A DNA stretch of 64,000 nucleotides from Micromonospora echinaurantiaca (GTDB lineage Bacteria; Actinomycetota; Actinomycetes; Mycobacteriales; Micromonosporaceae). Shown here one piece after another: positions 3,907 to 9,153 of this stretch. Both the position numbers and the translations under genes were made by a program. The stretch spans positions 6,591,501 through 6,655,500 of the forward strand of contig NZ_LT607750.1 in assembly GCF_900090235.1 (NCBI RefSeq), given 5' to 3'. Within the stretch, counting starts at the first letter, position 1, and every line of letters begins with the position of its first letter. The notes below the pieces were generated by a model. The model had not been told where the DNA came from and made no database searches. It saw only the letters and a list, made by a program, of their open reading frames with translations.

Positions 3907-4848
3907 TCAGCTCGCCGCCGGCCGGTCCAGCGCGTCCCGCACGGCCACTGCCAGCGACAACGCCTCGGAGAGATCGACCGGTCGGACCACCCCCGCGGGC
4001 AGCGTGTCGGCCTGCCAGCCCGGCCCCGCCGCGAGCACCAGCAGCGGCCGGCGGTGTGCCGCCAGCAGGGCGGCGAGCTGGCCCGGATCGGCGGTCGTCC
4101 GGGTGTGCGACCAGACCACCACGGCGGCCGGTCCGGTCCGGTTGACCGCCTCCAGCAGTGCCGGCACCGGCACCCGGGCGCCCAACATCCGGTAGCCGGC
4201 CCCGACCTCGGCGAGCGCGGCGGCCAACGCCTCCAGCGGCAGGCTGTGCTGCTCCTCGTCGGCGCAGGCGAGCAGGATGCGCGGCGGCCCGGCCGGCGCC
4301 GCGGCCCGGGCGGTCGCGGCGAGGGACTCGGAGACGCATCGGGACACCAGGTGCTCCACCTCGACCAGGCCGCCGGTGGCGTCGTGCCGCTCGCCGATGC
4401 CGACCAGCACCGGTCGCAGCAACCCGTCCCAGGTGGCGACCACCCCGTCGGTCGCGATCGCGCGGGCGATCGTCTCGCTGATCGCCACCGAGTCCAGCCG
4501 CAGCGCGGCCCGGGCCAGGCCCCGGGCCGCCGGACCGGCCCGGCCCACCGGGATGGTCGGTCCGCCGTCGCGGCCGACGGCGGTACGCGACCGTACGTCG
4601 GCGCCGGGGCGTGCGACGTCCGGACCCTGGCGGGCCCAGCGGGCCGCCTCGGCCGGGGCCACCCCCTCGGCGGTGAGCCGGCGCATCACCTCCAGCCGGG
4701 CGAGGTCGGCCGGCGTGTAGCGCCGGTGGTGCCCGGGGACGTGTTCGCTCGGCCCCAGCCCGTAGCGCTGGTGCCAGGTGCGCAGCGTGGTCACCGCGAC
4801 CCCGAGCCGCCGGGCGACCGCCCCCGCGCTCAGCGCCTCATCGGCCAC
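3907..4848 (-). CDS. MerR-family regulator with B12-binding domain (CarH/LitR-like)
   Basis: 313 aa. A MerR-type winged helix fills residues ~6-75 (AVARRLGVAVTTLRTWHQRYG, ...GHHRRYTPADLARLEV). It is followed by a helical bundle and a Rossmann-like cobalamin domain. In CarH a Wx9EH motif caps adenosylcobalamin and a later His is the lower axial ligand. Here the EH is present (E165-H166) and a likely axial His is H201 (DEEQH), but the Trp position ten residues before E165 is His155. The start overlaps the idi stop by 11 bp, so it is the last gene of the leftward carotenoid operon. By analogy it probably represses carotenoid genes in the dark; that is inference. Confidence 0.85.
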   Translation of the reverse strand: MADEALSAGAVARRLGVAVTTLRTWHQRYGLGPSEHVPGHHRRYTPADLARLEVMRRLTAEGVAPAEAARWARQGPDVARPGADVRSRTAVGRDGGPTIPVGRAGPAARGLARAALRLDSVAISETIARAIATDGVVATWDGLLRPVLVGIGERHDATGGLVEVEHLVSRCVSESLAATARAAAPAGPPRILLACADEEQHSLPLEALAAALAEVGAGYRMLGARVPVPALLEAVNRTGPAAVVVWSHTRTTADPGQLAALLAAHRRPLLVLAAGPGWQADTLPAGVVRPVDLSEALSLAVAVRDALDRPAAS

Positions 4849-5461
4849 CCGGCCGCTCCGGCGCGTCGTCGGCCGGCAACCCGGCCGGCAGTCCGGACGG
4901 GTTCACGGCCGGGCCGGCCAGTTGGCCGTCCGGGTTCAGCAGGCGGTTCACCACCCCGCCCAGCCACGGCGCGTACGCCCGGGGGTCGGTGTCCAGGTCG
5001 GCCGCCAGCTCGGCCGGGTCGACCCAGCGCAGCTCGGCCACCTCGTCGGGGTCTGGACGCAGCGGGCTGCCCGGCCGGAGGTCGCCGCGCAGGACGTGGT
5101 CGTACTCGAACTCGACCCGCCCGGTGACCGGATCCTCGGCGTAGTAGACGTACACCCCGAGCTCGGTGAGCTCGACCGGGCCGGCGCCCAACTCCTCGCG
5201 GAGCCGGCGGTTCGCGGCGTCGACCGGCGACTGGCCGGGCGTGGGGTGGCCGCAGCAGGAGTTGGCCCAGCGCAGCGGGAAGCGGGTCTTGGCCGCGGCC
5301 CGCCGTTGCAGCAGCACCCGGCCGTCCGGGTCGACCAGCACCACCGAGAAGGCGCGGTGCAGCTGGCCCGGCGGCTGGTGCGCAACCGACACGGTCGTCT
5401 CGCCGACCGCCCGACCGGCGTCGTCGACCAGCTCGACCAGGTGGCTCTCCCGGGAGGTCAC
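4838..5461 (-). CDS. idi: Isopentenyl-diphosphate delta-isomerase, type I
   Basis: 207 aa from GTG 5461. This Nudix-fold enzyme interconverts IPP and DMAPP in the cytosol, supplying the allylic primer for CrtE. Visible marks are the active-site Cys segment RWANSCCGHPTPGQ (Cys70 before GHP), the Nudix-like LREELG helix (~88-92) and the acidic EFEYDHVL strand that carries the metal-binding and proton-transfer Glu. Length fits type I enzymes (~180-210 aa); a Pro/Gly-rich tail of ~20 residues is extra. It lies 32 bp after crtI and overlaps the MerR start. The same frame stays open much further upstream into crtI, but only the part from 5461 resembles Idi. Confidence 0.9.
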   Translation of the reverse strand: MTSRESHLVELVDDAGRAVGETTVSVAHQPPGQLHRAFSVVLVDPDGRVLLQRRAAAKTRFPLRWANSCCGHPTPGQSPVDAANRRLREELGAGPVELTELGVYVYYAEDPVTGRVEFEYDHVLRGDLRPGSPLRPDPDEVAELRWVDPAELAADLDTDPRAYAPWLGGVVNRLLNPDGQLAGPAVNPSGLPAGLPADDAPERPGGR

Positions 5462-5493
5462 CGATTCCTGCCCTTCCAGTCCGAGGGGACGGC

Positions 5494-6975
5494 TCACCGG
5501 CCACCGCCGGTGATCCGGCCGGCGGCGAGCTTGCCGGAGATCAGCACCATCGGCACGCCGACGCCGGGCTGGGTGCCGGAGCCCACGAAGACCACGTTCG
5601 GCAGCGTGCGGTGCAGGTTGACCGGGCGGAACGGGCCGGTCTGGAACAGGTTGTGCGCGGCGGCGAACGGGGTGCCGGCGGCCATGCCCTGCTCGGCCCA
5701 GTCGGCCGGGGTGATCGTCCGGAGCACCTCGACGCCCGCACCGAAGCCGACGTAGCCGCGTTCCTCCAGCGTGCCGACGAGCTGGTCGGCGTAGCGGCGG
5801 TCGAGGTCGCCCCGCCACTCGAACGGCGCCCGGTCGAGGTTGGGCACCGGGGCGAGCACGTAGTAGGTGTGCCGCCCGGCCGGCGCCACCGACGGATCGG
5901 TCCGGCTCGGGTTGGTGACCAGCAGCGAGGGGTCGCTCATCAGCTTTCCGCGCCGGATGACCTCGTCGAAGGTGCCCCGCCAGGCGCGTCCGAAGTGGAT
6001 GTTGTGGTGGGCGATCTTCGAGTAGCCCTGGGTCGAGCCGACGTGCAGCACCACGCAGGAGGGCGAGTAGCGCAGCCGCCGCTGCCGGGCCGGCGGCAGC
6101 AGGTCGCGGTAGGCCACCGGCAGGTCGGGGTTGAGCACCACCACGTCCGCCGGGATCCGCTCGCCGTCGGCGGTCAGCACCCCGGTGGCCCGCCCGCCCG
6201 CGGTCTCCACCCGGCTGACCGTGGTGCCGTAGCGGATCTGCACGCCGTGCTTCTCGGCCGCGCCGGCCATCGCCCGGGAGACCGCGTGGATGCCGCCGCG
6301 CGGAAAGTAGACCCCGGCCACCGAGTCGAGGTACGCGATGACCGCGTAGATGGCCAGCGCGTCGTGCGGGGCGAGCCCGGCGTACATCGCCTGGAAGGAG
6401 AAGATCCGCCGGGTGCGCGGGTCCTGGAAGAACTGGTCGATCTTGGTCTGGAGCCGGCGGAACGCGCCGCCGGCGAGCAGCTTCAGCAGGTTGCCGGTGA
6501 GCAGGTCGGTCGGCGCGTCCAGGTTGCGCTCGATGAAGTCGGCCCGCTCCAGCTGCCACAGCCGCCGGGCGTAGTCGACGAAGCGCAGGTAGCCGTCGGC
6601 CTCCCGGGGCCCGCAGACCCGGGAGATCTCGGCCGCCATCCGGGTGGTGTCGGTGATGACGTCGAGCGTCGAGCCGTCCGGGTAGTAGGCCCGGTAGGCC
6701 GGGTCGAGCGGGGTGAGGTCGAGCCAGTCGGTCAGCTCCTCGCCGACCGCGCCGAGCGCCTCGGCGATCAGATCCGGCATGGTGAGCACGGTCGGCCCGG
6801 TGTCGAACTCGTAGCCGTCGACGCCGAGCCGGCCAGCCCGCCCGCCCGGCACCGGCTCCCGTTCCAGCACGGTCACCTGCCGGCCGCTGCCGGCCAGGTG
6901 CAGCGCGCAGGCCAGCCCGCCGAGGCCGGCCCCGACCACCACCACCCGGTCGGTGGGTCCGCTCACGGTCCGCAC
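5494..6975 (-). CDS. crtI: Phytoene desaturase (CrtI)
   Basis: 493 aa from GTG 6975. The start is set by a near-perfect anti-16S complement (AAGGAGGTGATC) a few bases upstream. The N-terminal dinucleotide-binding motif VVVGAGLGGLACALHLAGSG is followed by the E-x4-GGRAG FAD clamp. The C-terminal bacterial CrtI signature is NVVFVGSGTQPGVGVPMVLI. CrtI performs up to four FAD-dependent desaturations and a cis-trans isomerisation that turn phytoene into neurosporene or lycopene at the membrane. It sits 28 bp after crtE in a leftward operon, with crtB diverging. No lycopene cyclase is present in the window, so the locus itself supports an acyclic product. Confidence 0.93.
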   Translation of the reverse strand: MRTVSGPTDRVVVVGAGLGGLACALHLAGSGRQVTVLEREPVPGGRAGRLGVDGYEFDTGPTVLTMPDLIAEALGAVGEELTDWLDLTPLDPAYRAYYPDGSTLDVITDTTRMAAEISRVCGPREADGYLRFVDYARRLWQLERADFIERNLDAPTDLLTGNLLKLLAGGAFRRLQTKIDQFFQDPRTRRIFSFQAMYAGLAPHDALAIYAVIAYLDSVAGVYFPRGGIHAVSRAMAGAAEKHGVQIRYGTTVSRVETAGGRATGVLTADGERIPADVVVLNPDLPVAYRDLLPPARQRRLRYSPSCVVLHVGSTQGYSKIAHHNIHFGRAWRGTFDEVIRRGKLMSDPSLLVTNPSRTDPSVAPAGRHTYYVLAPVPNLDRAPFEWRGDLDRRYADQLVGTLEERGYVGFGAGVEVLRTITPADWAEQGMAAGTPFAAAHNLFQTGPFRPVNLHRTLPNVVFVGSGTQPGVGVPMVLISGKLAAGRITGGGR

Positions 6976-7003: not shown

Positions 7004-8158
7004 TCATGCCCGCCGGTCGGTGGCGGTGCCGGCGAGGCCGGTGAGCGCGATGCGCGCGGTCTCGTCGATCGACGCGTCGTCGAGCGCGGCGAGCGCCTCC
7101 GCCACCCGGTCGGCGATCATCCGCTCGACCCGTTCGACGGCCCCGGTGTCGGCGACCAGCTCGGCCAGCCCGGCGATCTCCCGGTCGCCGCCGCCCGCGC
7201 CGGCCCGCTCCAGCGCCCGGCGCTGGCTCGGGGTGGCGAGCTGCCGGGCCAGCATGAGCAGCACCGTCGGCTTGCCGGTACGCAGGTCGTCGCCGGCCGG
7301 CTTGCCGGTGGTGGCCGGATCGCCGTAGACGCCGAGCAGGTCGTCGCGGAGCTGGAACGCCTCGCCGACCGCCCGGCCGTAGTGGGTGTAGGCGGCGACC
7401 AGCGCGTCGTCGGATCCGGCGCCGGCCAGGTGGGCGCCGAAGAGCAGCGGTCGCTGCACCGTGTAGCTGGCGGTCTTGTAGCGGGCGACCCGCAGCGCCC
7501 GGTCGACCGACCAGCGGGCGGCGTCACTCTCGCCGAGCACGTCGAGGTACTGCCCGGCCACGGTCTCCACCCGCATCTGGTCGTAGCAGCCGCGGACGTC
7601 CAACAGCCGTGCCGGGGGCACGGCCGCGCGGGCGAGCAGCCGGTCGGCCCAGACCATGCAGAGGTCGCCGACCAGCACCGCGACCGCCTCGCCGAACCGG
7701 CGCGGGTCGCCCCGACGGCCGGCGGCGACGTGCTGGGCGGCCAGCGCCACGTGGGCGGTCGGCCGGCCGCGCCGGGTGGTCGAGGCGTCCATCACGTCGT
7801 CGTGCACCAGCGCGAAGGTGTGCAGCAGCTCCAGGGCGGCGAGCGCCGGCAGCACCGGTGGCAGCGGCTCGCTGCCGCCCACCGCCCCGCGCCAGCCCCA
7901 GTAGGCGAACGTCGGGCGGACCCGCTTGCCGCCGGCGAGCACGTGGTCGCGTGCGGTCGCGGCGAACCCGCCCATCGCCGCGTCGATCTCGGCCAGCGCG
8001 TCGACCTCGGTGGTCAGGAAGTCGGCAAGGGTGTCGTCCACCGCCGTGACCAACTCGCGGGTGTACGCGGTGAGCACCGCGCGGACCGGATCGTCCCGGC
8101 CGGACGGGTTTGCCGGCACGTCGCGAAGCGTATTACCCGCGGGTGCGTCGTTGGCCAT
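7004..8158 (-). CDS. crtE: Geranylgeranyl diphosphate synthase (CrtE-type polyprenyl synthetase)
   Basis: 384 aa. This trans-prenyltransferase condenses IPP onto allylic diphosphates. It shows the GGKRVRPTF motif (~76-84), the first Asp-rich motif DDVMD (120-124) followed by TTRRGRPT, and the second Asp-rich motif RDDLLG (~271-276) preceded by GEAFQL. The DDVMD form without an inserted pair and small residues upstream fit a C20 producer, but chain length cannot be fixed from sequence. First gene of the leftward operon crtE-crtI-idi-merR. On its strand a TAGGGT -10 lies 12 nt before the ATG, which would give a very short leader. Confidence 0.9.
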   Translation of the reverse strand: MANDAPAGNTLRDVPANPSGRDDPVRAVLTAYTRELVTAVDDTLADFLTTEVDALAEIDAAMGGFAATARDHVLAGGKRVRPTFAYWGWRGAVGGSEPLPPVLPALAALELLHTFALVHDDVMDASTTRRGRPTAHVALAAQHVAAGRRGDPRRFGEAVAVLVGDLCMVWADRLLARAAVPPARLLDVRGCYDQMRVETVAGQYLDVLGESDAARWSVDRALRVARYKTASYTVQRPLLFGAHLAGAGSDDALVAAYTHYGRAVGEAFQLRDDLLGVYGDPATTGKPAGDDLRTGKPTVLLMLARQLATPSQRRALERAGAGGGDREIAGLAELVADTGAVERVERMIADRVAEALAALDDASIDETARIALTGLAGTATDRRA

Positions 8159-8223
8159 GCGGCTGAGCGTACCCTAGGGTTGTGAGTTGCGTCGATTGGT
8201 GCGTCGATTGTGAGGGAGGGCCG
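8159..8223. promoter_or_regulatory. Divergent crtE/crtB promoter with palindromic -10
   Basis: This 65-bp gap separates the crtE and crtB starts. At 8171-8180 is a perfect 10-bp palindrome, ACCCTAGGGT, which supplies a TAGGGT-type -10 on both strands. For crtE the -35 region would fall at about 8194-8199, inside the direct repeats at 8188-8210. For crtB the repeats would lie just after the predicted transcription start. One bound regulator could therefore block both directions. Promoter assignment is by eye. Confidence 0.55.
8188..8210. repeat. Two 11-bp direct repeats in the carotenoid promoter (candidate MerR/B12 operator)
   Basis: TGCGTCGATTG occurs at 8188-8198 and again at 8200-8210, identical copies with a 12-bp period. 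Direct rather than inverted repeats of about 11 bp overlapping a -35 element are the known operator style of CarH-type cobalamin repressors. A CarH-like gene ends this same operon. Binding is inferred. Confidence 0.6.
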
Positions 8224-9153
8224 GTGGACACTGATCTCACCGCTGCCTACGACCGCTGCCGTGAGCTGCACCGACGCCACGGTCACACCTACTATCTCGC
8301 CACCCGGCTGCTGCCCGGGTGGAAACGGCGGCACGTGCACGCCCTCTACGGCTTCACCCGGTACGCGGACGAGATCGTCGACCGCACCGACGACCTTGCC
8401 CCGGCCGAGCGCGCCGCCCGCCTCGACGACTGGGGCGGCCGGTTCATGGCGGGCCTGCACGGCCAGCCGATCGACGACCCGCTGCTGCCCGCCGTGCTGC
8501 ACACCATCGCCGTCTTCGACCTCGACCGCGACGACTTCGCCGCGTTCCTCAAGAGCATGGCGATGGACCTGACCGTCGACTCGTACCGGACCTACGACCA
8601 GCTGCTCGACTACATGGAGGGCTCGGCGGCGGTCATCGGCACGATGATGCTGCCGATCCTGGGCAGCAGCGACCCGGCCGCGGCCCGGGAACCGGCCCGG
8701 CAGCTCGGCTTCGCCTTTCAGCTCACCAACTTCATCCGGGACGTGGCCGAGGACCTGGACCGCGGGCGGACGTACCTGCCGGAGGAGGACCTGGCCCGGT
8801 TCGGCGTCACCCGGCAGGACCTGCTCGAGGCCCGCGCGCGGCGGCGGGCCAGCCGGGCCATCCGGGCGCTGATCGCGTACGAGGTGACCCGCGCCCAGGC
8901 GCACTACGCCGCGGCGGCGCCCGGGATCACCCTGCTCGCACCCGCCTCGCAGGCCTGCCTGCGGACCGCGTACGCGCTCTACGGCGGGATCCTCGACGAG
9001 GTGGCCGCGCAGGACTACGACGTCTTCGCCCGCCGGGCCGTGGTCGGCCAGCGGCGCCGGCTGGCCGTGGCGGCCCAGGCCCTGCTCACCCCGACCGGCA
9101 CGCCGGTGGTCGCCGTCCCCGGGCCACCGCTGCCCTCCCCGAGCGCGCCGTGA
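8224..9153 (+). CDS. crtB: Phytoene synthase (CrtB)
   Basis: 309 aa from GTG 8224, placed by a GGGAGG ribosome site at 8213-8219; an upstream GTG at 8182 lies inside the promoter repeats and is unlikely. CrtB condenses two GGPP molecules into phytoene. Both Asp-rich substrate-Mg motifs are visible: DEIVD (49-53, in YGFTRYADEIVDRTDD) and DVAED (173-177, in NFIRDVAEDLDRGR). The RTYLPEEDL segment that follows is also typical. Length is normal, with a short Pro-rich tail. It is divergent from crtE and likely co-controlled through the shared 65-bp promoter. Confidence 0.93.
   Translation: MDTDLTAAYDRCRELHRRHGHTYYLATRLLPGWKRRHVHALYGFTRYADEIVDRTDDLAPAERAARLDDWGGRFMAGLHGQPIDDPLLPAVLHTIAVFDLDRDDFAAFLKSMAMDLTVDSYRTYDQLLDYMEGSAAVIGTMMLPILGSSDPAAAREPARQLGFAFQLTNFIRDVAEDLDRGRTYLPEEDLARFGVTRQDLLEARARRRASRAIRALIAYEVTRAQAHYAAAAPGITLLAPASQACLRTAYALYGGILDEVAAQDYDVFARRAVVGQRRRLAVAAQALLTPTGTPVVAVPGPPLPSPSAP

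Follow-up and report, generated by a model that had tools for sequence, protein, structure and literature searches.

A CarH/LitR-like regulator in the carotenoid locus of Micromonospora echinaurantiaca belongs to a clade without the Wx9EH tryptophan and is associated with a 12-bp tandem repeat

Micromonospora echinaurantiaca is an orange soil bacterium. In a stretch of 64,000 nucleotides of its genome (assembly GCF_900090235.1, contig NZ_LT607750.1, positions 6,591,501 to 6,655,500; hereafter the window, with positions counted from its first letter), a carotenoid locus contains a gene for a MerR-type regulator with a cobalamin-binding domain. Its product carries a histidine, His155, where the Wx9EH motif of the B12-dependent photoreceptor CarH has a tryptophan, which raises the question of whether such a protein still binds cobalamin and responds to light. 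An earlier note, made from the sequence of the window, had stated that this tryptophan packs against the adenosyl group in CarH and had suggested that its replacement could alter photochemistry, cofactor choice or B12 dependence; stacking on the adenosyl group is indeed supported (PMC10442372). How CarH diverts the photochemistry of adenosylcobalamin (AdoCbl) is still unclear, with the Wx9EH residues under suspicion (PMC8156234). A clade in which the tryptophan is replaced throughout, while the Glu-His (EH) pair and the axial histidine are kept, amounts to a natural experiment on B12 light sensors and, with a candidate DNA target named, cofactor choice, light response and DNA spacing become measurable in one small system. 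It also bears on the reason for dark pigment in Micromonospora-type bacteria and could yield a light tool with different properties.

The change from tryptophan to histidine is real. In an ungapped alignment with Thermus CarH, His155 occupies the position of Trp131, E165-H166 that of E141-H142 and His201 that of the axial H177, which bears out the earlier note on the swapped residue, the retained EH pair and the candidate axial ligand. The alignment places no tryptophan at the motif position and residues 146-172 contain none, so that a misplaced motif with the tryptophan elsewhere was rejected, as was a sequencing error or local mutation, the histidine being invariant in 121/121 aligned sequences (the query and 120 listed of 3667 matches). 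Instead of the Wx9EH of class I CarH/LitR proteins, the regulator thus has Hx9EH. Compared with the B12 motif E/DxHx2G/Px41SxT/Vx22-27GG, it reads E199xH201x2P204, 42 residues, S247xT249, 25 residues and GPG for GG.

By Pfam and fold comparison, a MerR head, a four-helix bundle and a Rossmann B12-binding domain are all present, the last below the Pfam cut-off. CarH proteins were the best matches in a Protein Data Bank sequence search and the predicted model resembles the dark CarH fold, at approximately 25% identity to Thermus CarH, from which the regulator differs in lacking both Trp131 and His132; on the NCBIfam CarH equivalog it scored 51.9 bits, below the cut-off of 400. The MerR head and cobalamin-type tail proposed in the earlier note were confirmed in this way, and its placement of the gene in the carotenoid operon holds as well, since Pfam assignments put it after crtE-, crtI- and idi-like genes on the same strand. 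The class II LitR proteins of Pseudomonas (PplR/PmlR) likewise combine MerR and B12-binding_2 domains in a light-response circuit, but they are described as having no recognisable Rossmann B12 domain (PMC9758184).

To place the regulator among its relatives, gene matches in family and class genomes were called by E-value, which does not imply orthology for all of them. A protein match was obtained in 89/121 family genomes (E ≤ 1e-10) and in 203/393 class genomes (E ≤ 1e-12, own genome included). Across 136 aligned rows, the motif residue was H in 54, W in 51, Y in 12, Q in 6, a gap in 5, F in 3, A in 2, P in 2 and T in 1, with EH and the axial histidine each present in 133. Of the 128 full-length rows (125 of them different) placed in a quick tree, the 70 that lack the tryptophan, representing 67 distinct genes of which three are present twice, formed one group with a Shimodaira-Hasegawa-like approximate likelihood ratio test (SH-aLRT) value of 82. 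This W-less clade consists of Micromonosporaceae and three copies in another family (f18), shows H in 54 rows, Y in 12, Q in 2, A in 2 and W in none, and stands beside Streptomyces (f19) and f17 sequences, all 14 of which have W. A more careful, motif-masked tree of 89 rows (48 of the clade), in which 39 rows were excluded (close copies, long branches and some W rows) and the f17 Q rows and the F rows were counted with the rest, explained the W-less group by a single change of state, with a support of 75/88 and recovery in 71% of 200 bootstrap trees. Judging from these alignments, the swap is not a local oddity but a fixed absence of tryptophan across the clade.

In the 128-row tree, tryptophan was also lost separately in an f17 subgroup, where 4 rows have Q, and in two F-bearing lineages. 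The independent f17 group (L164, L165, L173 and L192) has an extracytoplasmic function (ECF) sigma gene nearby in 4/4 cases and crt matches near two. One Micromonosporaceae genome (G030) has just a distant, W-bearing CarH-like match (L079, 31% identity).

Conservation around the cofactor was then compared, with L079 and L168 left out of the conservation table. Residues E165, H166, E199, H201, P227, G275, G277 and W278 were invariant in 70/70 W-less rows and T249 of the B12 motif was variable. Mean Rossmann-domain entropy was 1.26 in the clade vs. 1.24 in the W-bearing sisters (70 vs. 14 rows). The invariant EH and axial residues, together with the sister-like entropy, indicate that the checked cofactor contacts are strongly constrained, the swapped residue excepted. 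Two rival explanations meet their evidence here. If the change were neutral, with histidine or tyrosine capping the adenosine adequately in an ordinary AdoCbl photoreceptor, retention of EH and the axial histidine would be expected, and F (3 rows) and Q (4 rows) do occur among the remaining 42 actinomycete rows; yet W is found in the other 35 of these and in every sister row, it was never regained in 70 rows and the repeat spacing described below is shifted in the same clade, so that we consider neutrality quite improbable. Alternatively, His155 could lie over the cobalt as another upper ligand, giving a bis-His, hydroxo- or methylcobalamin form; the protein would then sense redox or cobalamin state, not the photolysis of AdoCbl. 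Position 156 (H132 in Thermus thermophilus CarH) is Ala in 49/70 clade rows, with a histidine at the 131 position instead, as this would have it, but that histidine gives way to Tyr, Gln or Ala in 16/70 rows, and the neighbours and repeat-bearing genes seen resemble photoprotection and not B12 metabolism; we regard this alternative as unlikely.

The DNA target was sought in the promoter region between the crtB-like gene and the divergent crtE-crtI-idi-merR genes, where direct repeats of TGCGTCGATT lie at 8188 and 8200. A single half-site has two matches in the window, not above chance (shuffle mean 2.4), so the signal lies in the tandem arrangement, of which the exact form occurs once in the 7.2 Mb genome. 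The repeat was scored on the 55 W-less loci that have long flanks; the remaining clade rows are short loci. In 51 of the 55, TGCRTCG half-sites occur as a pair close to the start of a crt, merR or photolyase gene, with period 12 throughout. Of these pairs, 35 are perfect, 15 carry one mismatch and 1 carries two; three loci (L054, L058 and L094) have a third half-site. Among family genomes, the repeat (≤1 mismatch) was present in 66/89 with a gene match vs. 1/32 without (Fisher p = 4e-13), that single genome (G031) having the repeat in front of a photolyase, and a reversed-pattern control gave 0/121. This control speaks against a chance origin, yet shuffled locus sets do yield loose pairs. A -35/-10 pattern was fitted by 26/55 loci, of which 24 have a spacer of 17-19. 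In the window, the proximal repeat contains the putative -35 of the crtE operon, an arrangement compatible with repression. The regulator shares with CarH/LitR proteins a candidate operator made of tandem direct repeats at a crt promoter, with a period of 12 rather than 11.

The class I LitR of Streptomyces senses light with coenzyme B12 (PMC12705666). It resembles the regulator in its domains, EH pair, axial histidine and similar half-sites, and its clade is the sister group in the tree. In the best 80 of 431 Streptomyces litR-like loci, assigned to litR by synteny, YGCRTCG-YGCRTCG (≤1 mismatch) was found upstream of merR at period 11 in 77/80, vs. period 12 in the W-less clade, and the tryptophan is kept, as Wx10EH, in 74/74 proteins parsed. 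The fetched stretches contain a photolyase in 75/80 and an ECF sigma gene in 59/80, and no match to crtE, crtI, crtB or idi was obtained in them. CarH operators are tandem 11-bp repeats (PMC9304148); that of Thermus (nnnnTnnACAn, period 11) differs from the W-less repeat in sequence as well as period. In other actinomycete families, a loosened (T/C)GCRTCG model found no site within 400 bp upstream of merR in 39/50 W, 4/4 Q and 3/3 F loci, and the remaining 11 W loci had pairs at period 11 (7) or other periods (4); a perfect pair with period 12 is present at one other W locus (L182). With sites this scarce, the 11 vs. 12 contrast holds only for the W-less clade and its sisters, for which these comparisons show at least two differences, the cap residue and a 1-bp change in repeat spacing. 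Since loss of the tryptophan is accompanied by the period shift in one clade, the geometry of the dimer has probably changed too; a mechanical link between cap residue and spacing is a guess. As a separate observation, a Streptomyces repeat like YGCRTCGnTTnTGCRTCGTATAG (L196-L275, 77/80) provides a ready LitR operator candidate.

Which genes the regulator might control beyond the crt genes was approached through neighbours and further repeats. Ten genes were searched by tblastn and adjacency was judged among these only; some loci are shortened by contig ends, making neighbour counts lower bounds. A photolyase is next past crtB in at least 22/43 crtB-bearing loci and lies beside merR in some crtB-less ones, and further copies of the repeat occur at photolyase, photolyase-related and MMPL genes. 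In the M. echinaurantiaca genome, the sole further site with ≤3 mismatches lies just upstream of an MMPL gene (C1:796045-798203, 3 mismatches), and the orthologue of this gene in a second genome of the genus (L279, Pfam MMPL) has a site with 1 mismatch; in L276-L278, a like-sized open reading frame (ORF), a candidate MMPL gene, stands at the repeat site. This pattern makes the MMPL transporter a likely further member of the regulon. Photolyase linkage, the litR-like sister group and the repeat at photolyase genes point to a photoprotection regulon. Elsewhere, L286 has an MMPL-family transporter gene with the tandem repeat upstream, and in L283 a photolyase-related (DPRP) gene, adjoined by a divergent sigma-70 factor gene, has the repeat at its start.

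The domains, the residue swap, the conserved EH pair and axial histidine, and the conserved tandem repeat with its gene co-occurrence are established at the level of sequence comparison. In the reading that we favour, the regulator is the Micromonosporaceae counterpart of Streptomyces LitR and represses a photoprotection regulon, a proposal we find as easy to doubt as to accept. The cobalamin-domain MerR repressor would bind the divergent crtB / crtE-crtI-idi-merR promoter at a pair of TGCGTCGA half-sites arranged head to tail, the tandem repeat presumably being its operator, and would cover the -35 of one promoter and the start region of the other, thereby repressing its own operon. Cobalamin is probably retained by His201 beneath the EH cap, and the dark dimer is probably the repressing form. 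Less certainly, light, through loss of the upper ligand, may still lift repression of the carotenoid, photolyase and MMPL-transporter genes; that the W-less LitR is cobalamin-bound and light-responsive has, in our estimate, about an even chance. The cap would then be remodelled, with His155 (or Tyr) in place of the tryptophan and perhaps able to ligate cobalt after photolysis, as H132 does in Thermus CarH. The fuller version, in which a His/Tyr cap supplies a built-in cobalt ligand, the light, redox or cofactor response is changed and the dimer is re-spaced to 12-bp repeats with the photoprotection regulon retained, is put forward tentatively. The CarH/LitR superfamily is already known; the accessible parts of the open-licence literature on CarH, on Micromonospora carotenoid or light regulation and on Salinispora sioxanthin contained no report of the W-less clade, and clade-wide tryptophan loss with a 12-bp repeat is new as far as that literature goes.

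Several observations weigh against the LitR-like reading. Tree support for the W-less clade is moderate, the B12-binding domain scores 27.0 bits against a Pfam cut-off of 32.1, and the replaced site is variable (H, Y, Q or A), unlike one strict ligand role. The four-helix bundle, site of the cap, is more variable in the clade than among the sisters (entropy 1.29 vs. 1.01, 70 vs. 14 rows). With regard to the operator, 4/55 W-less loci have no repeat in the region searched, a perfect pair occurs somewhere in 3/57 other class loci, and 26% of mononucleotide-shuffled locus sets give a pair of ≥12 of 14 at some period from 9 to 15. A Pfam search found no PF00875 photolyase in the M. echinaurantiaca genome. 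Furthermore, Wx9EH has been termed critical and defining for CarH (PMC8156234). In Salinispora tropica at 28 °C, light raises total carotenoid from 628 to 800 µg/g, and the sioxanthin peak increases from 208.4 to 502.5, which favours the LitR-like reading, but dark cultures are carotenoid-rich as well (PMC8469146), which speaks against it; these are strain-level figures not tied to a W-less regulator. Finally, Myxococcus CarA, which lacks the tryptophan and keeps EH and the B12 motif, works independently of B12 (PMC9304148).

This last case defines the main rival, in which loss of the tryptophan has produced a B12- and light-independent repressor, a constitutive dimer on the repeats whose repression is lifted by another factor or through autoregulatory balance. 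CarA, which also controls crt genes, forms a dimer with or without B12 (PMC9304148). Its repression is lifted by the antirepressor CarS. The regulator shares its combination of absent tryptophan, retained EH and retained B12 motif, the last with small departures. The high dark carotenoid of Salinispora, the looser four-helix bundle and a pair of half-sites suited to a dimer are all in keeping with it. E165, H166, E199 and H201 are nevertheless invariant throughout the clade and the Rossmann domain is constrained as in the sisters, which is not decisive given what CarA itself retains. CarA moreover belongs to a distant lineage, is missing four flanking residues as well and occurs alongside a W-bearing CarH, whereas no second MerR-B12 protein was seen in the M. 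echinaurantiaca genome, where PF02607 occurs in three places, the regulator and two without a recognised MerR head. A W-bearing MerR-B12 paralogue as the light sensor was rejected for this reason, and light input would need another route. On balance, we think the CarA-like explanation rather unlikely.

Other cobalamin-related genes were also recorded. The genome contains a cobalamin adenosyltransferase gene, which counts in favour of the LitR-like reading, and, at L004:1213-2262 (C1 ~2309618-2310667), a second cobalamin photoreceptor candidate with Wx9EH and the axial histidine kept and a C-terminal extension as in photocobilins; by sequence reading, it lies between PP2C-like phosphatase and STAS-like/response-regulator genes. 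Several Micromonosporaceae encode B12-domain relatives that have no corresponding MerR head (L080-L087, left out of both tree and conservation table), with EH and the axial histidine in 6/8 and the motif tryptophan in 0/8. No tandem repeat was found at these loci, save one weak pair in L085; a role as partner or antirepressor is possible.

The features of the locus are listed in Table 1.

Table 1. Annotated features of the carotenoid locus, in window positions
Feature	Position	Strand	Evidence
MerR-type regulator with cobalamin-binding domain, Wx9EH changed to Hx9EH	3907..4848	-	ORF and translation, Pfam, CarH matches, fold
MerR winged-helix DNA-binding domain, residues 7-73, recognition segment RTWHQRY	4630..4830	-	Pfam MerR_1, 57.2 bits
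Four-helix bundle cap (B12-binding_2), residues 109-178	4315..4524	-	Pfam 33.8 bits, over cut-off; model
Rossmann B12-binding domain, residues 190-278	4015..4281	-	Pfam 27.0 bits, under cut-off 32.1; CarH fold match
Codon of His155 (CarH Trp131 position)	4384..4386	-	Alignment
Codons of Glu165-His166 (EH pair)	4351..4356	-	Invariant in 70/70 clade rows
Codon of His201, expected lower axial cobalt ligand	4246..4248	-	70/70 clade rows; aligned to H177
idi-like NUDIX gene, assumed start codon; 11-bp overlap of its stop with the merR start	4838..5479	-	Pfam NUDIX, 83.8 bits
crtI-like phytoene desaturase	5494..6975	-	Pfam Amino_oxidase, 141.5 bits; gene name by family knowledge and synteny
crtE-like polyprenyl synthase	7004..8158	-	Pfam polyprenyl_synt, 174.6 bits
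crtB-like phytoene synthase, likely start GTG 8224 (ORF listed from 8182)	8224..9153	+	Pfam SQS_PSY, 256.1 bits for 8182-9153
Candidate operator, tandem direct repeat TTGCGTCGATT-nn-TGCGTCGATT, period 12	8187..8209	+	Repeat scans; sole exact site in genome
Putative -10 TACGCT of crtE-crtI-idi-merR promoter	8166..8171	-	Sequence reading
Putative -35 TCGACG of crtE operon, inside proximal repeat, spacer 18	8190..8195	-	Sequence reading
Putative -10 TAGGGT of crtB promoter, directly upstream of repeats	8175..8180	+	Sequence reading; like ones in many relatives

The order crtB / (crtE) crtI idi merR is conserved in 36/53 compared loci, the window included. In the window, the position past crtB is taken by a minus-strand gene that is serine-hydrolase-like by sequence reading.
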